Shown in pieces: positions 2,622 to 41,974 of a stretch of 64,000 nt of DNA. The stretch is taken from assembly GCF_000283655.1 (NCBI RefSeq), contig NC_016587.1:558001-622000 (forward strand), in the 5' to 3' direction. The stretch comes from Azospirillum lipoferum 4B. Its GTDB lineage: Bacteria; Pseudomonadota; Alphaproteobacteria; Azospirillales; Azospirillaceae. Position 1 is the stretch's first letter, and every line of letters starts with the position of its first letter. A program made the translations under genes and the position numbers. The notes under the pieces are model-generated. The model was not told where the DNA came from. It was given only the letters and a program-made list of their open reading frames with translations, and ran no database searches.

Positions 2622-4385
2622 ATGGAACTGCTGAAAGATGACGTGCCGGAAAGCCGCCGTATCGATGGCTGTCATTGCATGAGCTGCGCCGACAACCGGG
2701 CGATGTTGGCATCCGTCGCACCACCAAGGGTCGCGGCCACGGCGAAGTGGGATTTGGAAGCGATGATCGCCGCGCGGCGCGGATTCCTGGCACACGGCAA
2801 TGCTCCCGCCAGCGTTCCGCAACCCATCCTGCGTTCATGGCAACGGAGCGCCCGGCACGGCTTGGATCTTGAAACGAAGCTGACGGTCGAGCCGGTGTCG
2901 GGGCACGAGATGCGGGAGGCGCTGGAACGGAACGAACTGCTGGTTCAGGCCGCCTGGGCCGAGATCGAGGCACTGTGCCGCGAGATCGAATCCCCTGGGG
3001 GAGTCGTCGTTCTCACGGACCCGGACGGCTTCGTCCTGTCGCGATGCGGCAGCCCCGCCTTCCTCGGAGAGGCCGACGAGTTGGCGCTGCGTCCCGGCGT
3101 GCTCTGGAACGAAGCCGTCATCGGAACCAACGCCATCGGAATGGCGCTGGTCGAACGCTCGGAGATAACCGTTTTCGGCGGCGAGCATTTCTTCAAATCG
3201 CACGGCATCCTGAGCTGTTCCGCCGTGCCGATCATCGATTCGGTCGGCGCGACCATCGGTGTGCTTGATCTTTCCACGGTATCCAGCGTGTCGCATCACT
3301 ATGCCCTTTCCCTGCTGCGGCGGGCTGCGGAGCAGATCGAACGCCGCTTGTTCGAGCAGACCTTCGCCTGCCAGGAGCGGATGCATCTCCATTCCAACCC
3401 CTTGCTTCTTGGCGGGCCGCGTGAGGGGGTGATCGCTTTCGACGGCGACCGGCTGGTGGGGGCGAACCGCCATGCCATCGAGCTGCTCGGGCTGGACTGG
3501 TCGGCAATCGGCATGGTGCGCTTCAACCAGCTCTTCGCCATGCGGTGCAGCAGCGTGCGCCGCAATGCATTCTCGGACGAATGCGTCGTCCAGACGACAG
3601 GGGGCACGACCCTGTTTGCCCGCCTGCAAACGCCGGGAACCGGGGACAAGCCGCACGCCCCCGCGATCCGCACCAAACCCGGTCCGGACGCACGTAAGCC
3701 GGTCGCCACGGCCGGACGCCCTGCAGAAAAAACATATCCACTGCCCCACGAGATTCTGGAACGCCTGCTCCATGGCTCGCCCAGCGAGCACCACTCGGTG
3801 TGGAGACCGAAGGCGGGCAGCCTCATTTATGGATCGGAGATAACCGGGGAAGCGGGGGAAACCATTCTCATTGTGCGAAGCGGTCAGATGCGCACATATT
3901 CCTCCTACGAAGGGAAGGAATTGACACTGTTTTTTTTGGGCGTTGGCGATGCCATTATTATTCATCCACAAACAATGCTTGAAGTGAAAGCCGACAGCGA
4001 AGTAATAATTCTTCATGAGTCCATGTTCCGGGAATTGGCCCAGAGCGAACCCGATCTTGGCTTGTCGGTCATGCCGGCGATGAATCGCATCCTGCAGAAA
4101 TCGATCCGCATGCTCGAAGACCTGGCATTTCACAGCGTCAAGCATCGTCTGGTCCGACTGCTGGCCGACATGGCTGAACGCGATGGCAGGAAATCCTCGC
4201 GGGGCATTCTCATCGAATCGATCCCCAATGCGGAAGATTTGGCCATGCAAGTCGGTGCGACCCGGCAAACCGTATCGACCATCATTGCTGAACTGGTCCG
4301 CAGGGGACTTCTTCAGCGGGCCGGCAAAAGTTCGATTGTCATACCGGACCTGGAGCTCCTGTCGGACGAACTCGAAGCGGAATAG
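2622..4385 (+). CDS. Chimeric regulator: AcoR-like GAF region fused to Crp/Fnr sensor and HTH
   Basis: A 587-residue regulator with an unusual order. Residues 65-85 (ILRSWQRSARHGLDLE) and a GAF domain at about 110-245 are typical of AcoR-type sigma-54 activators; a short PAS-like stretch follows at about 265-300. The expected AAA+ sigma-54 domain is absent. Instead there is a Crp/Fnr-like beta-roll (about 395-480) and an Fnr-type HTH (about 535-565, AEDLAMQVGATRQTVSTII). A C-H-C-M-S-C cluster lies at residues 17-22 and could bind metal or an Fe-S cluster. The gene is divergent from the ferredoxin/AOR operon and probably controls it. The ATG at 2622 is used (GGGAGG upstream); a GTG at 2619 is the alternative. 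Confidence 0.85.
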   Translation: MELLKDDVPESRRIDGCHCMSCADNRAMLASVAPPRVAATAKWDLEAMIAARRGFLAHGNAPASVPQPILRSWQRSARHGLDLETKLTVEPVSGHEMREALERNELLVQAAWAEIEALCREIESPGGVVVLTDPDGFVLSRCGSPAFLGEADELALRPGVLWNEAVIGTNAIGMALVERSEITVFGGEHFFKSHGILSCSAVPIIDSVGATIGVLDLSTVSSVSHHYALSLLRRAAEQIERRLFEQTFACQERMHLHSNPLLLGGPREGVIAFDGDRLVGANRHAIELLGLDWSAIGMVRFNQLFAMRCSSVRRNAFSDECVVQTTGGTTLFARLQTPGTGDKPHAPAIRTKPGPDARKPVATAGRPAEKTYPLPHEILERLLHGSPSEHHSVWRPKAGSLIYGSEITGEAGETILIVRSGQMRTYSSYEGKELTLFFLGVGDAIIIHPQTMLEVKADSEVIILHESMFRELAQSEPDLGLSVMPAMNRILQKSIRMLEDLAFHSVKHRLVRLLADMAERDGRKSSRGILIESIPNAEDLAMQVGATRQTVSTIIAELVRRGLLQRAGKSSIVIPDLELLSDELEAE

Positions 4386-4814
4386 TTCGACCGCAAGTCT
4401 TTTCCGATGGGGGCTGACGCGCCGAGGCGCAGAAAGCGTCCTCGCTGCACGTCGCCGGTCCGACCAATAGCCGGCGTGCTTTTACCCGTTGTCCGTGGAT
4501 CGGCGTGGTGTTGTCACGTTGCTGGCGGCACCGTGCTCGGAGGCAGAGACGAGGCGGACAGGGCTTTATCCGATCTCCGCCCCGCCGCAAAAACGGCAAA
4601 AGAGCCTCGGACCATCACCGCCCCACCCAACGATGCCAAAGAATTTCTTATTTTCGCGCTGTTTATAGAAAAACTTTCTCCCACCGGCTATGCGCCGAAC
4701 CAAAAAAGTAAAAAATTATCATGGCAGCTATGGCATATTATCAATCGCAAGCATGGGCCGGCAGAACATCAAGTTGGCTCCGGTTATTTCCCGCCGATCA
4801 CAAATCATCATCAC
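4386..4814. other. Intergenic region, nothing recognisable
   Basis: About 430 bases between the convergent ends of the GAF-Crp regulator and the Lrp-type regulator. The second half (from about 4620) is visibly lower in GC than the flanks. I see no gene, clear hairpin terminator or repeat. Confidence 0.5.
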
Positions 4815-5288
4815 TCACGATGATACTGCATAGGAAAGGGGGATCTCAGTTGTTGACTTCATTTCTTCCATCGCGAACATTGACGATACATCCTGAAGCT
4901 CGATCCGCTCGATCAGCTTCCGGTAGAATGCATCATATGCTTTGATGTCCGGAATGACCACACGCAGCAAATAGTCGATCTCACCGCTTAGACGGTAAAG
5001 GTCAACAACTTCAGGTATGCCGGCCACGACGTTCCGGAATTTCTCCAGCCACTCGGCGGAATGGTTGCTGGTGCGGACCGCCACGAAGACCGTCACATCC
5101 ACATTCAGCCTTGCCCTGTCCAGCAACACGACCCGCTTGCGGATATACCCTTCCTGTTCAAGGCGTTGGATGCGGCGCCAGCAGGGGGTGGTGGACAGCC
5201 CCACCTGCTTGCCGAGATCGGCGAGCGAAAGGGCCGCATCGGATTGAAGGGCCGCCAGGATTTTGCGGTCGGTGGCATCGATGGTCAT
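4815..5288 (-). CDS. Lrp/AsnC-family transcriptional regulator
   Basis: A 157-residue protein of standard Lrp/AsnC size. The N-terminal winged HTH is clear (DRKILAALQSDAALSLADLG, then VGLSTTPCWRRIQRLEQEGYI), followed by the C-terminal RAM ligand-binding fold (residues about 65-150) with the GEIDYLLRVVIPD block. Members bind amino acids and regulate the adjacent transport or catabolic operon. It is divergent from the ridA-cysteine desulfhydrase operon 170 bp away, with a palindrome in between. Given that operon, a cysteine-related effector (as for the DecR/CdsR branch) is a reasonable inference, not something the sequence proves. Confidence 0.9.
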   Translation of the reverse strand: MTIDATDRKILAALQSDAALSLADLGKQVGLSTTPCWRRIQRLEQEGYIRKRVVLLDRARLNVDVTVFVAVRTSNHSAEWLEKFRNVVAGIPEVVDLYRLSGEIDYLLRVVIPDIKAYDAFYRKLIERIELQDVSSMFAMEEMKSTTEIPLSYAVSS

Positions 5289-5347
5289 AGGGCACGCTCA
5301 GGGAAACGAATGATGGTGCGAAGGATTTTGTCAAATCTGCTCAGCTG

Positions 5348-5363
5348 AAGAAAAGATTTTCTT
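5348..5363. promoter_or_regulatory. Candidate Lrp-type operator
   Basis: AAGAAAAGATTTTCTT is a palindrome of two 7-bp arms separated by GA, lying in an AT-rich patch between the divergent Lrp-type regulator (start 5288) and ridA (start 5459). Position and symmetry fit autoregulation and activation of the operon. No binding data are available. Confidence 0.45.
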
Positions 5364-5458
5364 GATTGCCGATTTCGCGTGCATCCGCGTGCCCCGCAAA
5401 GGGCAGTGCGCATGATTTTTAAGCAGATTGCGACCTCTATCACAGGAAAGGCAGATCG

Positions 5459-5836
5459 ATGACCGATCACATCGCAACAGAGAAAGCCCCGGCCGCCATC
5501 GGTCCCTATGTTCAGGCCCGCATCGCGGGCGGCCTGCTGTTCGTCTCCGGGCAGTTGCCGATCGACCCGGCCACCGGGAGCTTCGCCGGCACGGATGCGC
5601 CGGCCCAGGCCGGACAGAGCCTGACCAACATCGCGGCCATCGCCGACGCCGCCGGCACCAGCCTGGGCAAAGCGGTCAAGATGACCGTCTACGTCATCGA
5701 TCTCAGCCAGTTCAAGGCGGTGAACGAGGTCTATGCCGGCTTCTTCCAGGCGCCCTTCCCTGCCCGCACGACCGTCGAAGTATCGGCCCTGCCCCTGGGC
5801 GCGTCGGTCGAGATCGACGCCATCATCGCTCTTTGA
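5459..5836 (+). CDS. RidA family enamine/imine deaminase
   Basis: A 125-residue RidA/YjgF/UK114 protein, a trimeric cytoplasmic enzyme family that hydrolyses reactive 2-aminoacrylate and related enamines to keto acids and ammonia. Family blocks present are AAIGPYVQARIAGGLLFVSGQLP, with the active-site pocket region at FPARTTVEVSALPLGASVEID (the Arg of PARTTVEV is the conserved carboxylate-binding residue). First gene of the operon, with an AGGAAAG box before the ATG; the next gene starts 7 nt after its stop. It precedes a PLP enzyme whose beta-elimination of cysteine would release exactly the compound RidA detoxifies, which supports a dedicated role. Confidence 0.9.
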   Translation: MTDHIATEKAPAAIGPYVQARIAGGLLFVSGQLPIDPATGSFAGTDAPAQAGQSLTNIAAIADAAGTSLGKAVKMTVYVIDLSQFKAVNEVYAGFFQAPFPARTTVEVSALPLGASVEIDAIIAL

Positions 5837-5843
5837 GGATGTC

Positions 5844-6995
5844 ATGACCGCTTCCCCGCGGATCCTGTCCGCGCAGCCGGCCGCCCGGCCCTCGCTCCCC
5901 CCCGTCCGCCTCGATTTCACGCCTTTGCCCGAGTCCGGCCGAAGCGACTGGGTTCGGCAGGCGATCGGGTTGCTGGAGACCGAGGCGGCGCGGTCCCCCG
6001 ACACACCCCTGCTGAAACTGGACGTCCCGGCGCTTGCCGGACTCGACATCTATCTGAAGGACGAGTCGACCCACCCCACCGGCAGCCTGAAGCATCGCGT
6101 CGCCCGGTCGCTGCTGCTGTTCGCCATCTGCAACGGCCGCATCGGAGACGGGACGCCGGTGATCGAGGCATCGTCGGGCTCCACCGCCGTTTCGGAGGCC
6201 TATTTCGCCCGGCTGCTCGGCCTGCCCTTCTATGCGGTGATGCCGCAGGGAACGTCGGCGGAGAAGATCGCCGCGATCGAACTCTATGGCGGCCACTGCC
6301 GGTTCGTAGAGAGTTCGCAGGCGATCTATGCCGAGGCCGCCGCCCTGGCGGCCCGGCTCGGCGGGGTCTATCTCGACCAGTTCACCTACGCGGAGCGGGC
6401 GACCGACTGGCGCGCCAACAACATCGCGCAGTCCATCTTCGACCAGATGCGCAACGAACACCATCCGGTGCCGGACTGGATCGTCATGAGCGCCGGCACC
6501 GGCGGCACCGCCGCCACCATCGGCCGCTACATCCGCTACCGCCACCTCGCCACGCGGCTGTGCGTGCCCGACGCAGAACATTCCGTCTTCTACGACAGCT
6601 TCACCAGCCGCAGCACCGCGGTGACCTGCGAGCGCGGATCGCGGATCGAGGGCATCGGCCGCCCGCGCGTCGAACCGTCCTTCATCCCCGAGGTGATCGA
6701 CCAGATGATCAAGGTGCCGGATACCGCATCGCTGGCGGCGATGAGGGTGCTGTCGCGGCGCCTCGGCCGCAAGGTCGGCGGCTCCACCGGGACGAACTTC
6801 TTCGCGCTGTGCTGGATCGCCGGGCGGATGCGGGATGCCGGCCGCTCCGGGTCGCTGGTGACGCTGATCTGCGATTCCGGCGAACGCTACCGCAACACCT
6901 ACCATGACGAATCCTGGATGCGGCAGGCCGGCTTCGACACCGCCGCGGTCGAGGAGAGAATCGAGCAGTTCCTTCAGGGCGGCGCGCCGCTCTGA
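5844..6995 (+). CDS. PLP-dependent cysteine synthase-family enzyme, probable L-cysteine desulfhydrase
   Basis: A 383-residue fold-type II PLP enzyme. K83 in PTGSLKHR is the expected Schiff-base lysine, SSGSTAV (110-116) the substrate loop and SAGTGGTAAT (216-225) the phosphate-binding loop. The sequence resembles the Cds1-like branch of cysteine synthases, which degrade L-cysteine to pyruvate, H2S and ammonia, more than CysK/CysM; note the long N-terminal extension of about 50 residues. The start at 5844 was chosen by its tight coupling to ridA; the frame is open further upstream, inside ridA. Pairing with ridA (removal of 2-aminoacrylate) and an Lrp-type regulator favours a catabolic desulfhydrase. 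Cysteine synthesis is the alternative. Confidence 0.8.
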   Translation: MTASPRILSAQPAARPSLPPVRLDFTPLPESGRSDWVRQAIGLLETEAARSPDTPLLKLDVPALAGLDIYLKDESTHPTGSLKHRVARSLLLFAICNGRIGDGTPVIEASSGSTAVSEAYFARLLGLPFYAVMPQGTSAEKIAAIELYGGHCRFVESSQAIYAEAAALAARLGGVYLDQFTYAERATDWRANNIAQSIFDQMRNEHHPVPDWIVMSAGTGGTAATIGRYIRYRHLATRLCVPDAEHSVFYDSFTSRSTAVTCERGSRIEGIGRPRVEPSFIPEVIDQMIKVPDTASLAAMRVLSRRLGRKVGGSTGTNFFALCWIAGRMRDAGRSGSLVTLICDSGERYRNTYHDESWMRQAGFDTAAVEERIEQFLQGGAPL

Positions 6996-7061
6996 ACAAA
7001 AGAAAAAAATCGAGCTGTCGCCACCAAGAAAAGCAGCCGATACGAACAGGAGACTTCACCG

Positions 7062-7559
7062 ATGGACGATTTTCGCAAGCTCTTGCGGGACGCGATGAAA
7101 AGCCGCGCCATGGTCTATGAGGCCGCCTTCGACGAGATGCGCAAGGAGATCGGCGACGGCAAGGCCAGGGAGATCATGGCGCGCACCATCTACCGCCGGG
7201 GTGCGGCGATAGCCCACAACTTCGCTCCCCATGCTCCCGCCGATCTGGCCGGCCTGAGGGACGCCTTCCTGAAATTCATCCCCGACGCCGAGGCCCAGTT
7301 CGGGCCGGAGGTCGTGCGCTGCACCGACGAGGTGCTGGAGATCCGCTTCCACACCTGCCCGCTGAAGGAGGCCTGGATGGAGGCGAAGCTGCCGGTGGAG
7401 ACGGTGGAGACGCTGTGCGAACTCGCCGGATCGGTCGACAAGGGCACCTTCGAGACCGCCGGCTTCGACATCGAGGTCGACACCTGGAAGCCGGGCCGCA
7501 GCACCTGCTGCCACCTGACCATCACGCCGGGCCGGCCGGCGCCGGCCGCAGCACTTTGA
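7062..7559 (+). CDS. L-2-amino-thiazoline-4-carboxylic acid hydrolase family protein (first copy)
   Basis: A 165-residue protein that I place in the ATC hydrolase family (PF14196). Members open the ring of 2-amino-thiazoline-4-carboxylate to N-carbamoyl-cysteine in Pseudomonas. Shared features are a helical N-terminal half, then HTCPLKEAW (C99), VETLCELAGSVDKG (C119) and a terminal DTWKPGRSTCCHLTI with two adjacent cysteines (149, 150). It sits 66 bp after the cysteine desulfhydrase-like gene and directly before the ABC-transporter genes. A distant paralogue lies at 12347. Exact substrate is unknown; family membership is from remembered motifs. Confidence 0.7.
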   Translation: MDDFRKLLRDAMKSRAMVYEAAFDEMRKEIGDGKAREIMARTIYRRGAAIAHNFAPHAPADLAGLRDAFLKFIPDAEAQFGPEVVRCTDEVLEIRFHTCPLKEAWMEAKLPVETVETLCELAGSVDKGTFETAGFDIEVDTWKPGRSTCCHLTITPGRPAPAAAL

Positions 7560-7588
7560 CCCCGGTCCCGTCGAAAGGGAGCAGCACC

Positions 7589-8710
7589 ATGAAGACGCAC
7601 TTCATCCTCGGCGCCGTCCTCGGCACCTTGCTGGCCGCCGGTTCCGCAACCGCAGCCGACCGCGAGATCGTCATCGGCTATCAGGCGCCGCTCAGCGGCG
7701 ACCGCAGCCAATATGGCGAGATGTTCCGCAACGCGGCGCAGATCAAGCTGGAGGAGTTCAACAAGTCCGGCAAGCTGGCGGGCGCCACCGTCTCCATCGC
7801 CTTCGAGGACAGCAAGGACGATCCCAAGGAAGCGCGCAACATCGCCCGCAAGTTCCTGGACAATCCGAAGATCGTCGGGGTGATCGGCGATTTCTCCTCC
7901 ACCGTCTCGATGGCGGCCGGCGAGATCTATGCCGCCGAGAAGATGCCGCAGCTGTCCCAGACCGCTTCCCATCCCGACTTCACCAAGATCAGCCCCTGGC
8001 AGTTCCGCAACATCACCACCCAGGCCTTCGAAGGCCCCTACAATGCCGACTGGATCCTGGCCGGCGGCCTGAAGTCGGCGGCGGTGATCTACATCCAGAA
8101 CGACTGGGGCATCTCGGCGCTCGACGGCTTCGTCGCCGGTTTCAAGGCCAAGGGCGGCAAGATCGTCTCCACCGAAGCCTTCAACCCCGGCAACCGCGAT
8201 TTCCGCTCCATCCTGACCAAGGTCGCGCGGCAGAAGCCGGACGTGATCTATCTCGCCATGTTCTATGAAGAGGGCGCGGCGCTGGCCCAGCAGCGCGAAC
8301 AGCTGGGCATCGCCATCCCGCTCTACGGCACCAGCTCCCTCTATTCGCCCAAGCTGATCGAACTGGGCCGCGGATCGGTCGAGGGGCTGCATCTGGCGAC
8401 CACCTTCACCCCGGACAATCCCGACCCGGCGGTGCGCAGCTTCGTGACGGAATACTCGGCGCGCTACAAGGCGGAACCAGGCATGTTCGCCGCCCAGGCC
8501 TACGACGCGGTCGGCATCATGCTCGACGCCGTGGCCAAGGCCGGCCCCGCGGTGACGCGCCAGAGCCTGCGCGACGCGCTGGCCTCCACCACCGCCTATC
8601 CCGGCGTCACCGGCGCCACCAGCTTCGATCCCGTCACCCGCGAACCGTCCAAGTCGCTGGCGCGGATGATGGTGAAGGACGGCAGGTTCCAGGTGGTGGC
8701 GGGTCCCTGA
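7589..8710 (+). CDS. Branched-chain amino acid-type ABC transporter, periplasmic substrate-binding protein
   Basis: A 373-residue LivK-like (Peripla_BP_6) receptor. It has a typical Sec signal peptide (MKTHFILGAVLGTLLAAGSATAA, cleavage near residue 23), followed by EIVIGYQAPLSG and the ligand-fold blocks VGVIGDFSSTVSMAAGEIYA and YIQNDWGISALDGF. The start was taken at 7589, just before the signal peptide; the frame stays open upstream. It delivers ligand to the permease pair encoded next. Embedding between two ATC hydrolase-family genes suggests that the ligand is a heterocyclic or acylated amino acid rather than leucine. Confidence 0.9.
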   Translation: MKTHFILGAVLGTLLAAGSATAADREIVIGYQAPLSGDRSQYGEMFRNAAQIKLEEFNKSGKLAGATVSIAFEDSKDDPKEARNIARKFLDNPKIVGVIGDFSSTVSMAAGEIYAAEKMPQLSQTASHPDFTKISPWQFRNITTQAFEGPYNADWILAGGLKSAAVIYIQNDWGISALDGFVAGFKAKGGKIVSTEAFNPGNRDFRSILTKVARQKPDVIYLAMFYEEGAALAQQREQLGIAIPLYGTSSLYSPKLIELGRGSVEGLHLATTFTPDNPDPAVRSFVTEYSARYKAEPGMFAAQAYDAVGIMLDAVAKAGPAVTRQSLRDALASTTAYPGVTGATSFDPVTREPSKSLARMMVKDGRFQVVAGP

Positions 8711-8826
8711 ACGGTCCCGCGCCTGCCACCTCCGGGCATCACGCCCGATCCGTCCGACGGACGAAAGCCGCGGGGGCCAGTCCCGCCCAAGCCGGCGGGC
8801 ATGCCCCCCGAAGCCTGGAGCTTGCC

Positions 8827-9744
8827 ATGGTTTTCGACATCTTCTTTCTTCAGCAGGTCATCAACGGCCTGTCCATCGGCTGCGTCTATGCCCTGATGGC
8901 GATCGGCTTCACGCTGATCTTCGGTGTGCTCAACGTCGTCAACTTCGCCCATGGCGAGGTCTATACCGTCGGCGCCTTCGTCGGGCTGATGGTCATCACC
9001 GCCTTCGCCCCGCCGCTGCTGGCGGTGGTGCCGCTGGTCCTGGCCGCCGGCGCGCTGGCCGGGGTCGGGCTGGAGCGCATCGCCTTCCGCCCCTTCCGCC
9101 GCTTCAACGACGAGGCTAGTCAGAAATCCCGAGCCATGCGCGAAGCGACCCTGCTGTCCTCGCTGGCCGTGTCGATCGTGACGCGGGAGGTGATGATGCA
9201 CCTGTTCGGCGGCGACATGCAGGGCATTCCGGCCGGCTATCTGCTGCAAAGGCCGGTCGCCATCGGTCCGGTGATGGTCGCCAGCGGCAGCCTGGTGATC
9301 TTCGCCACCTCCGCCGTGATGCTGGGCGCCCTGCAGTTCCTGCTCTACCGCACCCAGACCGGGCTGGGCATCCGGGCGGTTTCCAACAACCAGCTGGGCG
9401 CCCGCTATGTCGGCATCGACACCGACCGCACCATCGTCACCACCTTCGCCGTCGGATCGATGCTGGGGGCGACGGCGGGAATCCTGGTCGGGCTCTATGA
9501 CGGCGCCATCTCGCCGCACATGGGATTCGCCCCCGGCGTCAAGGCCTTCGTCGCCATGGTGATGGGCGGGCTGTCCAGCATTCCGGGGGCGGTCGCCTGC
9601 GCGCTTCTGCTCGGCGTGTCGGAGAGCATCGCCACCGAATTCCTGTCGAGCGGCTGGAAGGATCTGATCACCTACAGCCTTCTGGTCATCACGCTGGTCT
9701 TCTTCCCGCAAGGATTGTTCGGACATGGACGTGAACGTGCCTGA
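8827..9744 (+). CDS. LivH-type ABC transporter permease
   Basis: A 305-residue inner-membrane permease of the branched-chain amino acid / urea family. FFLQQVINGLSIGCVYALMAIGFTLIFGVLNVVNFAHGE is the family's N-terminal signature, and about eight hydrophobic segments follow, with the EAA-like ATPase contact near VKAFVAMVMGGLSSIPGA. An unusual hydrophilic loop (residues about 95-112, FNDEASQKSRAMREA) is longer than in LivH. It overlaps the next permease gene by 20 bp, indicating translational coupling. Confidence 0.92.
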   Translation: MVFDIFFLQQVINGLSIGCVYALMAIGFTLIFGVLNVVNFAHGEVYTVGAFVGLMVITAFAPPLLAVVPLVLAAGALAGVGLERIAFRPFRRFNDEASQKSRAMREATLLSSLAVSIVTREVMMHLFGGDMQGIPAGYLLQRPVAIGPVMVASGSLVIFATSAVMLGALQFLLYRTQTGLGIRAVSNNQLGARYVGIDTDRTIVTTFAVGSMLGATAGILVGLYDGAISPHMGFAPGVKAFVAMVMGGLSSIPGAVACALLLGVSESIATEFLSSGWKDLITYSLLVITLVFFPQGLFGHGRERA

Positions 9745-10789
9745 CGCCCGGCCGATGCCGGACACCGCGGCGCTGCCCGCCGCCGCATGGCGCGGCCGGC
9801 AGCATGGCTGGACCCTTCTTCTGCTGGTCGTCGCCTTCGGCGCCGTGCCGGCCGCCATCGCCGCGACGGGTTCCAGCTACCTCGCCCAGATCGCCATCAC
9901 GGCGACGATCTTCGTCATCCTGTCGGCCAGCCTGAACCATGTCACCGGAACGGCCGGACTGCTGTCGATCGGACATGCCGCCTTCTACGGCATCGGCGCC
10001 TACGCCGCCGCGCTGCTGTCGACCAAGCTCGGCCTGCCCTTCATCGTCACCCTGCCGGCGGCCGGGCTGATCGCCGCGCTGTTCGGCCTTCTGGTCGCCC
10101 TGCCGACCATGAGGCTGGTCAGCATCTATTTCGCCGTCGCCACGCTCGGCATCGGCGAGATGATCTATGTGATCCTGCTGAACTGGGTGGATCTGACCCG
10201 CGGGCCGATGGGAATCCGCGGCATCCCGCCGGTCGAGCTGTTCGGCTGGCAGGCCGATACGCTGCTCAGCCGCTATCTGGTGGTGGCCGCGGTCGCCGTC
10301 GCCAGCCTGTGGGTGCTGCACCGGCTGACCCACTCCTACTACGGCAACGCGCTGCGGGCCCTGCGCGAGGACGACCAGTGCGCCGACAGCATGGGGGTCG
10401 ACGTGGTGCGGCTGAAGATCGAATCCTTCGTCGTCGCCACCTTCTTCGCCGGCATCGCCGGAGCCCTGCTGGCCCACACCTCCGCCTATATCGCGCCGGA
10501 CAATTTCCGCTTCATGGAATCGATCCTGATCCTGGCGATGGTCGTGGTCGGCGGGCTGGGCAGCCTGCCCGGCGCGGTCGTCGGCGCCCTGTTCATGATC
10601 GTCCTGCCGGAGGCGCTCCGCGGCATCGGCGATTACCGCATGATCGCCGTGGGGGTGACGATGTTCCTGTCCATCCTGCTGCTGCCGAAGGGCATGCTGA
10701 CCGAAGGCGTCGCGCTCGGCTTCGTCCGCCGCGCCTTCGCCCGTGGCTGGGCCACCGTCGCCGGCGGCAAGCCGGTCGGCTGGAAGTGA
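9725..10789 (+). CDS. LivM-type ABC transporter permease
   Basis: A 354-residue partner permease. Residues 1-35 are a variable cytoplasmic tail, then come about nine to ten hydrophobic segments. [31 protein letters not shown] and [16 protein letters not shown] / [21 protein letters not shown] are diagnostic LivM blocks. The start overlaps the end of the livH-type gene, and the ATPase gene starts 8 nt after its stop. Confidence 0.92.
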
Positions 10790-10797
10790 GGCGGACC

Positions 10798-11565
10798 ATG
10801 AGCGACACACTTCTGAACATCCAGGGGCTGACGCGGCGCTTCGGCGGCCTGCTGGCGGTCGGCGACGTCAGCGCCACCATCGCCGAGGGCGAACTGGTCG
10901 GGCTGATCGGCCCGAACGGCGCCGGCAAGACCACCCTGTTCAACCTGATCACCGGCTTCACGCCGCCGTCGGAAGGCAGCGTCACCTTCGCCGGGCGCGA
11001 CATCACCGGGCACAAGCCCTGGCAGATCGCCCGCATGGGCATGGGCCGCACCTTCCAGAACCTGCGCGTCTTCCCGACCATGACGGTGTTCGACAACGTG
11101 TCGGTCGGTGCGGTGGGCCGTTCCGGTCAGTCGCCCTGGCAGGCCCTGGTCAATGGCGGCGCCCGCAGCCGCGCGGTCAGCGAGCGCAGCTGGGAGGCGC
11201 TCGAACGGGTCGGGCTGGCCGATCAGGCCGGGGAGATCGCCGCCAACCTCTCCTACGGCAAGCGCAAGTATCTGGAGATCGCCCGCGCGCTGGCGACCTC
11301 GCCCCGGCTGCTGATCCTCGACGAGCCGGCCGCCGGGCTGAACGACACCGAGACCGCCGAACTGGCGGCCTTCATCCGCCGCCTGCATGCCGGCGGCATC
11401 ACCGTCCTGCTGGTCGAGCACGACATGGGGCTGGTGATGGGAAGCTGCAGCCGGGTCATCGTGCTGGCCTCGGGCCGCAAGATCGCCGACGGCACGCCCG
11501 ACGAGGTCCAGCGCGACCCCGCCGTCCTCGAAGCCTATCTGGGAGTGGAAGACGATGCCGCCTGA
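10798..11565 (+). CDS. LivG-type ABC transporter ATP-binding protein
   Basis: A 255-residue ATPase. Walker [10 protein letters not shown] is at about 37-45, the Q-loop lies in RTFQNLRVF, the signature is [14 protein letters not shown] (LSYG variant usual for LivG), Walker B is [12 protein letters not shown] and the H-loop is LLVEHDM. The RTFQN block and C-terminal EAYLG motif mark it as the LivG subunit. It overlaps the livF-type start by 11 bp. Confidence 0.93.
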
Positions 11566-12331
11566 CGGAGTTCACGCCCCCGCCACGGCCCCCGCCCCTG
11601 CCACGGCCCCCGCCACCCACGCCGTCCGCCGCATCCTGGAGGTCCGCGACCTGACGGTGCGGATGGGGTCGCAGGAGATCCTGCGCGGCGTCTCTCTCGA
11701 CGTCGCCGAGGGCGCCATCGTCGCGGTGCTCGGCGCCAACGGCGTCGGCAAGACCACGCTGATGCGGGCGCTGTCCGGCATCTACCGCAGCAGCGGCGGC
11801 GCCACCGTGTTCGACGGCCGCGACCTGACCGACAGCCCGAGCCACGAGGTGGTGCGGCGCGGGCTGGCCCAGGCGCCCGAAGGGCGGCAGATCTTCGGCA
11901 CCATGACGGTTCGGGAAAACCTGCTGCTGGGCGGGCGGGCCCTGCGCCAAGACCGTGCCGCACGGATGGAGGAGATGCTGGACCTGTTTCCCCGCCTGCG
12001 CGAACGGCTGATCCAGAAGGCCGGGTCGCTGTCCGGCGGCGAACAGCAGATGCTGTGCATCGCCCGCGCCCTGATGTCGAAGCCGCGGCTTCTGCTGCTG
12101 GACGAGCCGTCGCTCGGACTGGCGCCGATGGTGGTGAAGCAGATCTTCGACCTGCTGACGCGGATCCGCGGCGAAGGCACCTCCATCCTGCTGGTGGAGC
12201 AGAATGCCCGCGCGGCGCTGCGCGTCGCCGATCATGCCTACGTGATGGAGGCCGGGCGGGTTACGCTGTCCGGCAATGCCGCTGACCTTGCGGCCGACCC
12301 GCGTGTCCGGGCGGCCTATCTCGGCGGCTGA
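11555..12331 (+). CDS. LivF-type ABC transporter ATP-binding protein
   Basis: A 258-residue second ATPase of the importer. Walker A GANGVGKTT, signature LSGGEQQMLCIARAL, Walker B LLLLDEPSLGLAP and H-loop LLVEQNA are intact, and RGLAQAPEGRQIFGTMTVREN is characteristic of LivF. The first 27 residues are an Ala/Pro-rich extension (PATAPAPATAPAT) not needed by the fold; a later start is possible. Confidence 0.92.
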   Translation: MPPDGVHAPATAPAPATAPATHAVRRILEVRDLTVRMGSQEILRGVSLDVAEGAIVAVLGANGVGKTTLMRALSGIYRSSGGATVFDGRDLTDSPSHEVVRRGLAQAPEGRQIFGTMTVRENLLLGGRALRQDRAARMEEMLDLFPRLRERLIQKAGSLSGGEQQMLCIARALMSKPRLLLLDEPSLGLAPMVVKQIFDLLTRIRGEGTSILLVEQNARAALRVADHAYVMEAGRVTLSGNAADLAADPRVRAAYLGG

Positions 12332-12346
12332 AGAAGGAGCGGATCG

Positions 12347-12898
12347 ATGACCCACACCGACGAAACCCCGCCCATCCCCGCAGCGCCCGCCCCGCCTTCA
12401 CTCAACGCCATGCCGATCCTGGACCGGCGGCGCGTCGAGGCGGCCTTCGCCAAGGCGCTCTATGACCAGCTGGTGCCCGAGATCGGCCGGGAGCGGGCGC
12501 GGGCCGTCCTCGCACGCGCCATCGAGACGATGGCGCGCGAGGCCGGGGCCGCCATGGCGGCGGAAGACCGCGCAACCCGCGGCACCGCGGATCTCGCCAC
12601 CTTCCGCGACCGGCTCGCCCTGTGGACCGCCGGCGACGCCCTGCGGCTGGAGGTGGTCGAAAGCGCGCCGGACCGGCTCGGCTTCAACGTCACCCGGTGC
12701 CGGTATGCGGAGAGCTACCGCGAGATGGGCGTGCAGGAGATCGGCGACATCCTGTCCTGCAACCGCGACGGCGAGTTCATGTGCGGCTACCTGCCGGATG
12801 CCCGCTTCACCCGGACCCGGACCATCATGCAGGGCGACAGCCACTGCGACTTCCGCTACAGCCTGCCCGGAAGCGGCAGCATGGAGAATCCGGAATGA
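12347..12898 (+). CDS. L-2-amino-thiazoline-4-carboxylic acid hydrolase family protein (second copy)
   Basis: A 183-residue protein with the strongest ATC-hydrolase signature in the cluster: NVTRCRYAESYREMG (C118), EIGDILSCNRDGEF (C138), MCGYLPD (C146), RTRTIMQGDSHCDFRY (C167). The first 20 residues are Pro/Ala-rich and probably disordered. It starts 15 nt after the livF-type stop and overlaps the M20 amidohydrolase start by 4 nt. That layout matches a two-step route in which the hydrolase opens the thiazoline ring and an amidohydrolase removes the N-carbamoyl or N-acyl group to give cysteine. It shares little sequence with the 7062 copy. Confidence 0.78.
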   Translation: MTHTDETPPIPAAPAPPSLNAMPILDRRRVEAAFAKALYDQLVPEIGRERARAVLARAIETMAREAGAAMAAEDRATRGTADLATFRDRLALWTAGDALRLEVVESAPDRLGFNVTRCRYAESYREMGVQEIGDILSCNRDGEFMCGYLPDARFTRTRTIMQGDSHCDFRYSLPGSGSMENPE

Positions 12899-14094
12899 CC
12901 ATTCCCGCGACTGTCCGCCTGGACCCGGCCGCCGAGGCGTTGGCTCCCGAAATGCGGCACTGGCGGCACCATCTGCACGCCCATCCCGAAACCGCCTTCG
13001 AGGAGCATGAGACCGCCGCCTTCGTCGCCGCCAAGCTGCGCGACTTCGGCCTGGAGGTGGCGACGGGGCTGGGCCGCACCGGCGTGGTCGGCACGCTGAA
13101 GGGGCGGCGTCCCGGCAACCGCGCCATCGCGCTGCGGGCCGACATGGACGCCCTGCACATCCAGGAGACGAACGCCTTCGCCCACCGCTCGGTCAATCCG
13201 GGCCGGATGCATGCCTGCGGCCATGACGGCCACACGACCATGCTGCTGGGAGCCGCGAAGATCCTGGCCGAGGATCCCGACTTCGCCGGAACGCTGCATG
13301 TCATCTTCCAGCCGGCGGAGGAGAATGAGGGCGGCGCACGCGAGATGATCGCCGACGGGCTGTTCGAGCGTTTCCCGGTGGAGGGCGTCTACGGCATGCA
13401 CAACTGGCCGGGCCTGCCGCTGGGGCACATCGCGCTCCGTCCGGGGCCGATGATGGGCAGCTACGACATCTTCGAGGTGGCGATCCACGGCAAGGGCAGC
13501 CACGCCGCCATGCCCCACATGGGCAACGACCCCGTCACCGCCGCCGGCCATCTGCTGACCGCGCTCCAGACCATCCCCGGCCGCAGCCTGCATCCGCTGG
13601 ACAGCGCGGTGGTGTCCCCGACCTGGATTTTCGGCGGCGACACCTGGAACGTCATCCCGTCCGACGTCACGCTGCGCGGCACCGTGCGCGCCTTCAAGGA
13701 GAGCGTGCAGGACGTGGTGGAGGCGCGTCTGAGGACATTGGCGGAACACACCGCCGCCTCCTTCGGCTGCAGCGCCAGCGTGCGCTACGAACGGCGCTAT
13801 CCGGCGACCGTCAACAGCCCGGCGGAAACCGCCCTGTGCGCCGGGGTGGCCGCGGCCCTGGTCGGGGAGGAGAACATCGACCACGACCCCATGCCCTCGA
13901 TGGGCGCCGAGGATTTCGCCTTCATGCTGAAGGAGCGGCCGGGCTGCTACATCTGGCTCGGCAACGGTCCGGCCGAGGGCGGCTGCCTGCTGCACAATCC
14001 GGCCTACGACTTCAACGATGCCAACCTCGCCATCGGCGCCAGCTATTGGGTGGCGTTGGCGAAGGCCCTGCTCCCGGCGGAGGCGGCGCAATGA
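12895..14094 (+). CDS. M20 family metallo-amidohydrolase
   Basis: A 399-residue M20D-type peptidase (hippurate / N-acyl-amino-acid amidohydrolase group). Metal-ligand blocks are visible: MHACGHDGHT, the ALRADMDALHIQE block, QPAEENEGGA and the late MGAEDFAFML His/Glu region; GSHAAMPHMGNDP marks the dimerisation domain. Known relatives cleave N-acyl or indole-acetyl amino acids, and N-carbamoyl-L-cysteine is the substrate expected if the pathway follows Pseudomonas ATC degradation. It overlaps both neighbours by 4 nt, so it is tightly coupled to the second ATC hydrolase and to the FAD enzyme. Confidence 0.88.
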   Translation: MTIPATVRLDPAAEALAPEMRHWRHHLHAHPETAFEEHETAAFVAAKLRDFGLEVATGLGRTGVVGTLKGRRPGNRAIALRADMDALHIQETNAFAHRSVNPGRMHACGHDGHTTMLLGAAKILAEDPDFAGTLHVIFQPAEENEGGAREMIADGLFERFPVEGVYGMHNWPGLPLGHIALRPGPMMGSYDIFEVAIHGKGSHAAMPHMGNDPVTAAGHLLTALQTIPGRSLHPLDSAVVSPTWIFGGDTWNVIPSDVTLRGTVRAFKESVQDVVEARLRTLAEHTAASFGCSASVRYERRYPATVNSPAETALCAGVAAALVGEENIDHDPMPSMGAEDFAFMLKERPGCYIWLGNGPAEGGCLLHNPAYDFNDANLAIGASYWVALAKALLPAEAAQ

Positions 14095-15380
14095 CCATGC
14101 TCCATCAGTCCATGCCCGACTCGCATTGGGCGGCGACCGCCGTGGCTGCACCGGACATCCGGCCGCTGGACGAGACCGTGCAGGCCGACGTCGCCATCGT
14201 CGGCGCGGGCGTGACCGGCCTTTCCACCGCGATCCATCTTGCCGAACAGGGGGTGCGCGCCGTCGTGCTGGAAGCGCAGGAACCCGGTTTCGGCGGGTCC
14301 GGCCGCAACAACGGCCAGATCATTCCGACCCTGTCCCGCCTGGACCCGGCGAACCTGACCTCCGCCTATGGGGAGGAGACGGGAACGGCGCTGGCCCGCA
14401 TGGTCGGCGGGTCTGCCGAACTGGTCTTCGACCTGATCCGGCGCTACCAGATCCGCTGCGATGGGGTGCAGAAGGGCTGGATCCAGCCGGCCCACCGGCC
14501 CGGCCGCATGGCGGCGGTGGAGAAGCGGGTTGCGCAATGGCGGGCGCTGGGGGCGGAGGTCGATCTGCTCGACGCCGGCCAGACCGAACGGGCGCTGGGC
14601 ACCGGCTTCTGGCATGGGGCGATGGTCGCACCCACCGGCGGCCATGTGAACCCGCTGTCGCTGGCCCGTGAACTGGCACGCGCCGCCATCGGCCTGGGTG
14701 TGCGGATCCACGGCGCCTCCCCCGTCACGGCGATCGACCGTGCCGGCGGCGGCTGGCGGCTGGCGACGCCGCAGGGAAGCGTGACCGCCGACCGCGTCGT
14801 GCTGGCGACCAACGCCTATACCGACGGTCTCTGGCCGGGCCTGCGGCGCTCCATCGTGCCGGTGCTGAATTTCCAGATGGTGACGGAGCCGCTGCCTGCC
14901 CGGCTGCGCGACAGCGTGCTTCCCTCGGACATGGCCTGCAGCGACACGCGCGGCGACCTGTATTTCTTCCGGTGGACCGCCGACAACCGGCTGGTTTCGG
15001 GCTGCACCCTGGTCCGTTCCGCCAACGCCGACTCTCGGGCACGAGAGCGGGTGCGCGAGCGCATCCGCCGGGTCTTCCCGCAGGCCGGCGATCCGGCGAT
15101 CGCCCGGAACTGGAGCGGACATCTGGCGATGACCGCCGATTTCCGTCCCCATTTCCACGAACTGGCTCCCGGTGTGGTCGGGGCGGTGGGCTACAATGGC
15201 CGCGGCATGGCGCTCGGCACCGCGGTGGGGCGGGAACTGGCCCGCCAAGCCATCGGCGCCCGGCCGCGAGATCTGGCTCTGCCCTTCACGGCCGTGAAGC
15301 CGCTTCCCTTCCACGATCTGGTAAGCCGCTTCGCACGGCTCTACATGCTGCACCTGCGCCGGCTCGACCGGACTGGCTGA
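14091..15380 (+). CDS. FAD-dependent amine/amino-acid oxidoreductase (DAO family)
   Basis: A 429-residue DadA/PuuB-like flavoprotein. The dinucleotide fold starts at about residue 32 (VAIVGAGVTGLSTAIHLAEQG, with GxGxxG) and GFGGSGRNNGQIIP is the FAD-contact block of the gamma-glutamylputrescine oxidase/DadA group. GVVGAVGYNGRGMALGTAVG near the C-terminus closes the FAD site. It would oxidise a C-N bond of an amine or imino acid, perhaps a reduced thiazolidine or a D-amino acid made in this pathway. Last gene of the operon; the true substrate is unknown. Confidence 0.85.
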   Translation: MTMLHQSMPDSHWAATAVAAPDIRPLDETVQADVAIVGAGVTGLSTAIHLAEQGVRAVVLEAQEPGFGGSGRNNGQIIPTLSRLDPANLTSAYGEETGTALARMVGGSAELVFDLIRRYQIRCDGVQKGWIQPAHRPGRMAAVEKRVAQWRALGAEVDLLDAGQTERALGTGFWHGAMVAPTGGHVNPLSLARELARAAIGLGVRIHGASPVTAIDRAGGGWRLATPQGSVTADRVVLATNAYTDGLWPGLRRSIVPVLNFQMVTEPLPARLRDSVLPSDMACSDTRGDLYFFRWTADNRLVSGCTLVRSANADSRARERVRERIRRVFPQAGDPAIARNWSGHLAMTADFRPHFHELAPGVVGAVGYNGRGMALGTAVGRELARQAIGARPRDLALPFTAVKPLPFHDLVSRFARLYMLHLRRLDRTG

Positions 15381-15435
15381 ATGCACTGTAGGGCTGCACC
15401 GCGGCCGGGTGTCTCATCGAACCGTGCCGCGCCCC

Positions 15436-15570
15436 ACGCCACTGGCAGCCGGTGCGCACCACGTAGAACAGGCCGTCCAGAAGATGGCGCATGCCCGTGC
15501 TGCGCGGTCGCCCTGCCGGTTTGGGTGGCGGGATCGGCGGTTCGATCAGACGGTACTGCTCATCGCTCAG
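15436..15570 (-). pseudogene. IS5-family transposase N-terminal fragment (DUF4096-like)
   Basis: About 45 residues read LSDEQYRLIEPPIPPPKPAGRPRSTGMRHLLDGLFYVVRTGCQWR in pieces. This matches the start of IS5/IS1031-type transposases (DUF4096), in which the RTGCQWR block is nearly invariant. After it the frame departs from the family, and no DDE catalytic core is found on either side. It is therefore a remnant of an insertion sequence. Confidence 0.75.
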
Positions 15571-15689
15571 GGCTTGGCCGGCGCCATAATCGCCAAACTT
15601 GGACAAGTGCACCCAGCAACCGCGGTCGGGGGTCCAGCGCCGAAACGCATCGACGAACCGGGCCTCCTTGGCCTCGGCCCTGTCCAGCG

Positions 15690-15880
15690 GCATCGACCAG
15701 TTGGACTCCGTCAATGGCGCCCCATCCCCCCTTATCGCCGCAGGCATAGGCACGGGCGAACCATGAACAGCCAAGCCGGGGAAGCAGCCTCTGAACCACC
15801 GGCCAGATCGAGACCGGAACATTTTCAGCGTCGATCAACACGGCAAGACGCGTGGGATCGCAACTCACCGAACTGGACTC
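15690..15880 (-). pseudogene. NYN-domain (LabA/DUF88-like) gene fragment
   Basis: The frame reads RLAVLIDAENVPVSIWPVV, then FARAYACGDKGGWGAIDGVQLVDAA, resembling the first strand and helix of NYN-domain proteins (LIDADN motif of a PIN-like nuclease fold). The frame then loses similarity and runs into the transposase fragment in another frame, so the gene is truncated or frameshifted. It may have been interrupted by the neighbouring insertion sequence. Confidence 0.5.
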
Positions 15881-40080: not shown

Positions 40081-40923
40081 TCAGATGCTGTAATCGCCCT
40101 GCTGCAGGCTCTGGTCCATGGTCAGTGCCGGGGCCGGCTCGTCGCGGCACCAGCCGACGACCTTGGCGGGCACGCCGGCCACGGTGGCGCAGCCGGGGAC
40201 GTCCTTCAGCACGACGCTGCCGGCGCCGACCTTGGCGTGGGCGCCGATGGTGATGTTGCCCAGCACCTTGGCCCCGGCCGACAACAGCACGCCGTCGCGG
40301 ACCTTGGGGTGGCGGTCGCCATGTTCCTTGCCGGTGCCGCCCAGCGTGACGTTCTGCAGGATCGAGACGTCGTTGCCGATCACCGCGGTCTCGCCGATCA
40401 CCACGCCGGTGCCGTGGTCGATGAAGACGCCGCGCCCGACCGGAACCGCCGGGTGGATGTCGACGGCGAAGGCCTCCGACACGCGGCTCTGCAGGAAATG
40501 GGCGAGGTCGTGGCGCTGGCGCTTCCACAGCCAGTTTGCCACGCGGTGCCATTGCAGGGCGTGGAAGCCCTTGAAATAGAGGAAGGGCGTCAGGCAGCCG
40601 TCGGCGGCCGGGTCGCGCGCCAGGATGGCGGCGAGGTCGGCGGCGGCGGCGTCGACGATGGCCGGGTCGGACTCCATGGCGTCGCGCACAACGGCGGCCA
40701 GCCGGTCCTCCGGCATGGCGCGGTCGGCCAGCTTGCGCACCAGCAGCGCCGCCAGCGCCGGGCCGAAGCCGTCGCGCGCCAGCACCGCGTCATACAGGAA
40801 GGGGGCGAGGCCGCTTTCCTCCTCCGCGACGCGGGCGGCATCGGCGCGCAGGCGGCGCCACAGCGATTGTTCGACCGATTCCGCCGCCTCCCGCACTGCA
40901 ACGTCCAGGCTGTCCATCGCCAT
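40081..40923 (-). CDS. cysE: Serine O-acetyltransferase
   Basis: A 280-residue CysE, which acetylates L-serine with acetyl-CoA for cysteine synthesis. The N-terminal helical domain (SVEQSLWRRLRADAARVAEEE) and the left-handed beta-helix (DIHPAVPVGRGVFIDHGTGVVIGETAVIGNDVSILQNVTLGGTG) with catalytic His are intact, followed by the long acceptor loop and C-terminal tail ending DYSI. The C-terminal Ile is the residue that usually docks into CysK. The frame is open upstream; ATG 40923 or 40917 is likely, and the latter has the better spaced AAGGGG. Confidence 0.93.
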   Translation of the reverse strand: MAMDSLDVAVREAAESVEQSLWRRLRADAARVAEEESGLAPFLYDAVLARDGFGPALAALLVRKLADRAMPEDRLAAVVRDAMESDPAIVDAAAADLAAILARDPAADGCLTPFLYFKGFHALQWHRVANWLWKRQRHDLAHFLQSRVSEAFAVDIHPAVPVGRGVFIDHGTGVVIGETAVIGNDVSILQNVTLGGTGKEHGDRHPKVRDGVLLSAGAKVLGNITIGAHAKVGAGSVVLKDVPGCATVAGVPAKVVGWCRDEPAPALTMDQSLQQGDYSI

Positions 40924-40978
40924 CACCCCTTCCCGCGGGGCGTGCCCCGCGATATCCGCTCGCCATATCCGAAGGATG

Positions 40979-41974
40979 CTACTGTGGTGAGACGCCCCCG
41001 GTCCGGTCAAGGCCGTTGCCATCAAGGCTGCCTCCCGCTGCGCCGGTGGCCTCGTGCCCATCGCCGGCGTGCGCCCGCCGGAAGGCCTGCGGCGACCGCC
41101 CTTCCCGCTTGGTGAAGAAGCGCGAGAAATAGGCCGGATCCTCGAAGCCCAGGGCATAGCCGATCTCCGCCATGCCGTGGCTGGTATAGATTAGCGACCG
41201 TTTGGCCTCCAGCATCAGCCGGGCATGGACCAGCTGCAGGGTCGACAGGCCGGTGACGCGGCGGCAGGCGGCATTCAGCCGGCCGGGGGTGACGCCCAGC
41301 GCCGCGGCATAGCGCTCCACCGGCCAATGCTGGCTGAACCGCTCGTCGATCATCGGCCGCAGCCGGGCGAGCAACCGCAAGTCGGGGGATTGCCCCGGCC
41401 CGTCCCGGCCCGCCCCGTCCCGCCGGCCGGCCTTCAGCCGCGCCACGGCGACAAGCAGCAGCATCACATGGGCCGAAATCGCGCTGGCGCGGCCGACATG
41501 GTGAGCGCGGAACTCCCCCCGGATGGCGGCGAAGGCATGGGACAGCGCCGCCGCCTCGTCCGATCCCTCTTCCAAATCCCAGGCCAGCGGCAGGGGCGGA
41601 GCCTCGCGCAGCTCCGCCTCCGGCGCGGCGGCAAGCACGCCGGCCAGGAAGCCCTCCGACATGGTCAGCACATGGCCGTCGGTGCCGGCATCGAAGCGGA
41701 AGCCGTGCACCACCTGCGCCGGAACGACGATGAGGGCGGGGGCGCGAAAGGCGGTTTCCACCCCATCGGCGGTCAGCCACCCACCGCCGCCGGTGACCAG
41801 AAGCGCGTGGCTCAACCCGTCGTGGCGGTGGGGCCGGACCTCCCAATTGTACAAGCGCATCCGTTCCGGGATCGTCTCGATATGGACGAAGCGCAGCTCC
41901 GGGACGGCCGGCGGTTCGCCATAGAGCCAATAGCGGGGAATGGGTTCGGCACTGTGGGCAAGCTGGGCGGACAT
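40979..41974 (-). CDS. pobR: AraC-family regulator, probable PobR
   Basis: A 331-residue AraC-family activator. An N-terminal cupin sensor (residues about 25-130; RPHRHDGLSHALLVTGGGG, APALIVVPAQVVHGFRF) is followed by a C-terminal double HTH (about 215-310) ending in the signature YALGFEDPAYFSRFFTKREGRSPQAFRR. It is divergent from pobA with about 160 bp between starts, the classic pobR-pobA arrangement, so 4-hydroxybenzoate is the probable effector. An Ala/Gly-rich tail follows the HTH. Confidence 0.88.
   Translation of the reverse strand: MSAQLAHSAEPIPRYWLYGEPPAVPELRFVHIETIPERMRLYNWEVRPHRHDGLSHALLVTGGGGWLTADGVETAFRAPALIVVPAQVVHGFRFDAGTDGHVLTMSEGFLAGVLAAAPEAELREAPPLPLAWDLEEGSDEAAALSHAFAAIRGEFRAHHVGRASAISAHVMLLLVAVARLKAGRRDGAGRDGPGQSPDLRLLARLRPMIDERFSQHWPVERYAAALGVTPGRLNAACRRVTGLSTLQLVHARLMLEAKRSLIYTSHGMAEIGYALGFEDPAYFSRFFTKREGRSPQAFRRAHAGDGHEATGAAGGSLDGNGLDRTGGVSPQ

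Follow-up and report, generated by a model that had tools for sequence, protein, structure and literature searches.

A conserved Azospirillum operon with two PF14196 proteins as a candidate route for the catabolism of cyclic cysteine adducts

Opening of the thiazoline ring, in one biotechnological reaction, is to our knowledge the only activity characterized for the PF14196 family. Two proteins of this family lie together in the locus considered here, which occupies positions 4815-15380 of the window, i.e., the whole 64,000-nucleotide stretch of Azospirillum lipoferum 4B that was analyzed (NC_016587.1, 558,001-622,000). According to passages of PMC5847659, the PF14196 enzyme cuts the C-S bond of the ring, which would leave an N-acyl-type product. 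The published Pseudomonas route from 2-aminothiazoline-4-carboxylate (ATC) consists, according to PMC10821248, of a racemase, a hydrolase, and an amidohydrolase; the text there has both N-carbamoyl and S-carbamoyl variants, and the figure legend the S-carbamoyl one. For the Azospirillum locus, the reading preferred in this work, at a probability of roughly 40%, is that the operon serves the catabolism of a ring-shaped adduct of cysteine, the most likely candidate being a thiazolidine-4-carboxylate (thioproline, for example, or a 2-substituted relative).

Other described systems provide the chemistry against which this proposal can be read. Thioproline is the adduct of cysteine and formaldehyde. 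In the oxidation of L-pipecolate, AmaA attacks the ring carbon that does not bear the carboxyl group, and the same regiochemistry applied to thioproline would generate a thiazoline with its C=N bond. Bacillus sarcosine oxidase belongs to the same broad flavin oxidase family as the DAO-type oxidase of the operon, AtcC of Pseudomonas to the hydantoinase/carbamoylase group, and the Bacillus operon for the disposal of S-(2-succino)cysteine (yxe) combines an importer with a YxeP-type M20 enzyme acting on an N-acylated cysteine derivative. Excerpts of the respective papers report that thioproline is converted to N-formylcysteine in bacteria and mitochondria (PMC9814826), that it is oxidized by E. 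coli ProC (PMC12899673), and that its L form is a minor substrate of Bacillus sarcosine oxidase, with 0.17% of the efficiency for sarcosine (PMC12582975).

Open reading frame (ORF) translations, together with Pfam and NCBIfam profiles, resolve the Azospirillum locus into a plus-strand run of eleven genes and, divergent from it, an Lrp regulator. Every gene named in the initial annotation was found at this place, and the gene order bears out its remark that the importer lies between the two PF14196 genes, called here PF14196-1 and PF14196-2. The features are as follows.

4815..5288, minus strand: Lrp/AsnC-family regulator, divergent from the operon (PF01037, 69.5 bits; PF13404, 67 bits)
5289..5458, no strand: gap between Lrp and RidA, presumed to hold the promoter and a regulator site (alignment of 10 sequences)
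5459..5836, plus strand: RidA-type enamine/imine deaminase (PF01042, 121.7 bits; TIGR00004, 151.7 bits)
5844..6995, plus strand: pyridoxal phosphate (PLP) enzyme, cysteine desulfhydrase Cds1-like (PF00291, 173.4 bits in a longer frame; NF052478, 532.5 bits)
7062..7559, plus strand: PF14196-1 (ATC1), divergent branch, with a predicted V4R/TRAPP-like fold (43.8 bits)
7589..8710, plus strand: periplasmic amino-acid-type binding protein, Liv class (PF13458, 212.3 bits)
8827..9744, plus strand: LivH-type permease (PF02653, 135.6 bits)
9725..10789, plus strand: LivM-type permease (PF02653, 151.8 bits)
10798..11565, plus strand: LivG-type ATPase (best NCBIfam model LivG, 258.1 bits, below the cut-off of 362)
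11555..12331, plus strand: LivF-type ATPase (PF00005, 113.7 bits)
12347..12898, plus strand: PF14196-2 (ATC2), canonical branch (126.5 bits)
12895..14094, plus strand: M20 amidohydrolase, aminoacylase type (PF01546, 160.9 bits; TIGR01891, 361.8 bits)
14091..15380, plus strand: flavin adenine dinucleotide (FAD)-dependent DAO-family oxidase, nearest model L-pipecolate oxidase AmaA (PF01266, 240.5 bits; NF050086, 301.7 bits)

The genes are tightly packed. Overlaps of 20 bp (LivH/LivM), 11 bp (LivG/LivF), and 4 bp (both PF14196-2/M20 and M20/DAO) agree with the range of 4 to 20 bp given initially, and the remaining plus-strand gaps measure 7 to 116 bp. Several blocks of the Lrp-RidA gap are conserved across the 10 aligned sequences, the regulator site being putative. 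When 4700-15700 was scanned for consensus sites, neither a promoter-like match in this gap nor a terminator-like site 3' of the oxidase emerged.

Does this set of genes form a unit? The nearest of the genomes compared (G001) carries it complete, with 92-99% protein identity. Among 72,556 plasmid records, 7 match the query over 80% or more of its length at a single site, with coverage of 93-100% and identity of 86-87%; their sources are Azospirillum brasilense, A. argentinense, and Azospirillum sp. TSH58. A second operon of related make-up is present in some strains. On the plasmid of A. argentinense Az39 the set is flanked by other genes than in the window, which places the borders of the unit at Lrp and the oxidase.

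For a wider view, contigs of 84,980 species genomes were scanned with a PF14196-1 alignment and two peptide patterns; 123 stretches matched and 70 were confirmed, a sample biased toward PF14196-1, in which 31 loci were counted as Azospirillaceae by their record titles, together with L128, which is titled Roseomonas. A partner gene was scored as present if it lay no more than 9 kb away and above 35-38% identity, and loci ended by contig borders were scored as lacking genes, so that absence counts are upper bounds. A second sample drew on 42 genomes with a PF14196 match; 40 stretches were selected, and they represent 32 of these genomes. Within the class, PF14196-1 matched at E 0.001 in 29 of 385 sampled genomes, some of the matches being weak.

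The initial annotation had proposed a search of genomes for conserved co-occurrence, and this search reveals both the full set and a core that reaches beyond Azospirillum. All eleven partner types are present in 8 of the 70 loci, every one from Azospirillum, with Lrp at the same position in all 8. Importer, oxidase, PF14196-2, and M20 occur together in 20 loci that have neither Lrp, RidA, nor the PLP enzyme, and in 3 more that have Lrp and lack the other two. PF14196-2 accompanies importer and oxidase without M20 in 9 loci (one with Lrp), importer and oxidase do without both PF14196-2 and M20 in another 9 (again one with Lrp), and 12 loci show other partial combinations. Counted singly, the oxidase is found in 56 loci, the binding protein in 57 (the two together in 53), PF14196-2 in 40 (one frame, L139, is a truncated pick of 9 bases), M20 in 32, Lrp in 13, and the PLP enzyme and RidA in 8 each. 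Hosts of the importer-oxidase pair beyond Azospirillum include Chelatococcus, Xanthobacter, Prosthecomicrobium, Aquabacter, Siculibacillus, Pacificibacter, and Burkholderiales metagenome-assembled genomes (MAGs). A core of the oxidase, PF14196-1, and the importer, often with PF14196-2 and M20, recurs in MAGs of Burkholderiales and in Alphaproteobacteria other than Azospirillum. What is established here is a real and evolutionarily conserved gene set, with its families, their order, and their co-occurrence.

PF14196-2 accompanies M20 in 31 of 32 loci, the oxidase is present in all 40 loci with PF14196-2, and RidA is found with the PLP enzyme in 8 of 8 loci. These counts suggest a first block of [importer, oxidase, PF14196-1] and a second of [PF14196-2, M20], with [RidA, PLP enzyme] as an addition made in Azospirillum. 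Of the 56 loci with the oxidase, 8 have RidA. Outside Azospirillaceae the M20/PF14196-2 link holds in 7 of 7 loci (Fisher p 4e-4, a guide only, since the loci are related by descent). The blocks are also separate in genomes of the window's order, where L047, L049, and L051 carry importer, oxidase, and PF14196-1, and L048, L050, and L054 carry PF14196-2 with M20; L048 and L049 lie at different places of one genome and L050 and L051 of another. PF14196-2 stands without M20 in L106, L108, L109, L114, L118, L127, L129, L139, and L140, and no substitute amidohydrolase appeared among ten proteins from seven loci and three from L118, with L127 and the remaining genes outside the scan. As a separate observation, not used as evidence, a Glyoxalase_3 family gene lies beside the importer-oxidase block without PF14196-2 at L092:10989-11807 and L099:16467-17336.

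As for the PF14196 proteins themselves, both pass the Pfam cut-off of 28.1 bits, and the match of PF14196-2 spans model positions 2-145 of 145; membership had been fixed beforehand as a point on which the initial annotation could fall, and the profile search keeps both proteins inside the family. A V4R/TRAPP fold is predicted for both from their structure models (predicted local distance difference test, pLDDT, 95.8 for PF14196-1 and 91.7 for PF14196-2), a kinship of the family that is already published; a sequence search of solved structures with PF14196-2 returned nothing up to E 1. The ten PF14196-1 neighbors taken from atypical loci (L095, L097, L101, L102, L104, L116, L147) gave no hint of the substrate: they are PilZ, an S41 peptidase, DUF2336, Sel1, an E1 dehydrogenase pair, a nitroreductase, DNA polymerase delta, EAL, and one unmatched protein. 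In L070 and L071, PF14196-2 genes without partners adjoin transposase-type genes and may be remnants.

Two further PF14196 arrangements were seen. A third group is represented by a protein of 225 amino acids (L074:8872-9546) that matches the C-terminal part of the model with 51.9 bits, its gene belonging to another cluster with a Liv-type transporter, in a genome from the window's nearest genus. In L142, tandem PF14196-1 matches, from 777 and from 1419, lie 5' of the importer.

The remaining proteins fall into well-known classes. The importer is a full Liv/HAAT-type ATP-binding cassette (ABC) set in one cluster, with a binding protein, two permeases, and two ATPases; the best solved relative of the binding protein by sequence is 3hut (E 2.6e-117), and its 117.7 bits with the Liv binding-protein model, whose cut-off is 477, do not decide the ligand. 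The M20 enzyme lies inside the amidohydrolase group TIGR01891 (361.8 bits against a cut-off of 153.75) and outside the hydantoinase/carbamoylase group TIGR01879 (22.4 bits against 204); HACGHDGH-like and PAEE-like motifs are present in all 32 orthologues from the 70 loci, and YxeP (1ysj) is the nearest solved relative in a sequence search. AmaA gives the best of the 56 models matched by the oxidase. Of the 354 positions of the Cds1 model, the match of the PLP enzyme covers 1-351, RidA scores 151.7 bits in the Rid family against a cut-off of 106.25, and both profiles and order accord with the Cds1-like enzyme next to RidA described initially. In G001 a second Cds1-like gene (L004, G001:C1:994982-996085) is 58% identical and has one TGA within the matched stretch.

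How could these parts work together? The cyclic adduct would be taken up by the Liv-type importer, and the FAD oxidase would convert the ring imino acid to a thiazoline-4-carboxylate, which one of the PF14196 hydrolases would open to an N-acyl (N-formyl) cysteine. The M20 enzyme would then remove the acyl group, the Cds1-like enzyme would split cysteine into sulfide and 2-aminoacrylate, and RidA would turn the latter into pyruvate and ammonia, with Lrp possibly sensing an amino acid of the route. In the division of labor proposed, PF14196-1 would act with the oxidase and the importer, and PF14196-2 with M20. A thiazolidine substrate is put forward because the oxidase stands beside a thiazoline hydrolase, and thioproline is preferred because its chemistry employs all the genes; a thiazoline arising in this way would be the type of ring on which PF14196 enzymes act. 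The service of RidA to 2-aminoacrylate is judged most likely from gene distribution, because RidA tracks the PLP enzyme and not the oxidase; parts of PMC4433059 likewise report RidA genes clustered with those of D-cysteine desulfhydrase and L-cysteine desulfurase. A PF01177 gene (Asp/Glu/hydantoin racemase family) between Lrp and the oxidase in L137, L138, L140, and L141 would suit a chiral ring substrate. The initial annotation had suggested a complete path on to pyruvate, sulfide, and ammonia; the gene set fits such a path, but the PLP enzyme and RidA occur in only 8 of 70 loci, all of them Azospirillum, and the extension to pyruvate therefore looks like a local addition.

Several observations weigh against the thioproline route. 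The oxidase and the PLP enzyme both miss the cut-off of 600 set for their models, AmaA and Cds1. Of the 70 loci, 62 lack the PLP enzyme and RidA, 38 lack M20, and 30 lack PF14196-2, in some cases through contig-end cuts. L048, L050, and L054 carry PF14196-2 and M20 without the remaining genes, and in the stretches examined L052 (Lrp, PLP enzyme, PF14196-2) and L053 (the same plus RidA) lack importer, oxidase, and M20; the absence of M20 there also weighs against a strict [PF14196-2, M20] block. The route does not account for the presence of two PF14196 proteins; the C.RD motif of PF14196-2 is absent from PF14196-1 in all 70 loci (0/70), and PF14196-1 stands without any other operon gene in 9 of the 70, which indicates further uses for it. 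Finally, N-formylcysteine arose in plain buffer from cysteine and formaldehyde, as one section of PMC9814826 has it, so that a dedicated enzyme would be chemically dispensable.

What else might the operon do? The route first suggested for it begins with import of ATC, which PF14196 would open to N-carbamoyl-cysteine for M20 to convert to cysteine, then degraded, the oxidase remaining accessory. PF14196 is named for ATC hydrolysis and both proteins exceed its cut-off, the published route pairs such a hydrolase with a racemase and an amidohydrolase, and a racemase-family gene does occur in the four related loci mentioned above. However, this route calls for a carbamoylase-type M20, and the profiles place the enzyme in TIGR01891 instead; no racemase gene was found among the scanned genes of 4815-15380 (Pfam, NCBIfam); and the oxidase, for which the ATC chemistry has no need and to which the initial annotation assigned no role, is present in 56 of the 70 loci. 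We regard this route as unlikely. Somewhat less doubtful is a non-sulfur substrate, in which the core would handle another cyclic or N-substituted amino acid, with an imine or amidine and then an N-acylated amino acid as intermediates, by analogy with ectoine opening and deacetylation, the Azospirillum variant just adding a lyase for its own product. The cysteine lyase is indeed missing from 62 loci, the model of DoeB2, an ectoine enzyme, gives M20 316.6 bits (below the cut-off of 550), and PF14196 proteins are found in other settings, with a related domain in archaeal signalling proteins according to a passage of PMC5847659; against this, the one characterized activity of the family known to us is thiazoline opening, as PMC5847659 also states, and the operon's lyase is nearest to a cysteine desulfhydrase model.

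A further reading, likewise unlikely, concerns a single step and is compatible with another of these explanations: the two PF14196 proteins would not both be enzymes, with PF14196-1 serving the oxidase or the importer as a binding or regulatory partner, or they would pair as a heterodimer in the manner of TRAPP subunits. A common fold proves no function, and since PF14196-1 stands alone in several loci while G013, G036, G043, and G046 each yielded one PF14196 match, in every case to a PF14196-2-type protein, an obligate heterodimer is improbable. Least probable by far is that the importer is an ordinary one, for branched-chain amino acids or for amino acids in general, and that the amino-acid enzymes next to it are unrelated: the genes do match Liv families, but the same enzymes accompany the importer across genera, and the binding protein falls well below the Liv cut-off, as given above.

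Upstream, at 2622-4385 (plus strand) and outside the operon, lies a regulator with a GAF domain and a Crp-type helix-turn-helix. Downstream, 16543-39900 (plus strand) holds genes for type I secretion, namely an ABC exporter that has a C39-like domain and an adaptor of the HlyD type, together with an ORF of 6548 amino acids whose many RTX calcium-binding repeats and immunoglobulin- and cadherin-like domains describe a giant secreted adhesin-like protein. At 40082-41157 (minus strand), a serine acetyltransferase-like protein (SATase_N), an enzyme of cysteine biosynthesis, adjoins an AraC-type regulator.

All parts of the operon belong to known families and already carry names in public annotation; no description of the set as a unit was found among the literature matches listed, subscription journals lying largely outside their coverage. 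Proposed tentatively, and judged less likely than not, is a dedicated bacterial pathway, complete in its enzymes, for thioproline and further adducts of aldehydes with cysteine, with import, flavin oxidation to the thiazoline, V4R-fold ring opening, deacylation, and cysteine breakdown. If true, such a pathway would return cysteine and remove the aldehyde in the form of an acid, and the ATC hydrolase family would gain a natural role, with formaldehyde-cysteine chemistry in rhizosphere bacteria linked to sulfur supply and sulfide release. A conserved operon with an importer, an oxidase, and a deacylase gives the natural role of PF14196 a testable form.

Compared with the Pseudomonas route from ATC to cysteine, the Azospirillum operon has in common a PF14196 hydrolase next to an amidohydrolase and, in the scheme proposed, the arrival at cysteine, and four of its relatives share a racemase-family gene. 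It differs in having an M20 enzyme of another group and no racemase, and in adding a second PF14196 protein, the FAD oxidase, the importer, the lyase, RidA, and Lrp. The Bacillus yxe operon resembles it in importer and YxeP-type M20 enzyme, whereas it is not known to have a PF14196 protein or a DAO oxidase. The PLP enzyme recalls mycobacterial L-cysteine desulfhydrase Cds1 in its near full-length match, although it scores under the model's cut-off and is located in a catabolic operon. With thioproline oxidation in E. coli by proline dehydrogenase or ProC, and to N-formylcysteine in mitochondria, the route proposed here would share ring oxidation followed by an N-acyl-cysteine; there, the activities are those of proline enzymes, while in Azospirillum they would belong to a dedicated operon.

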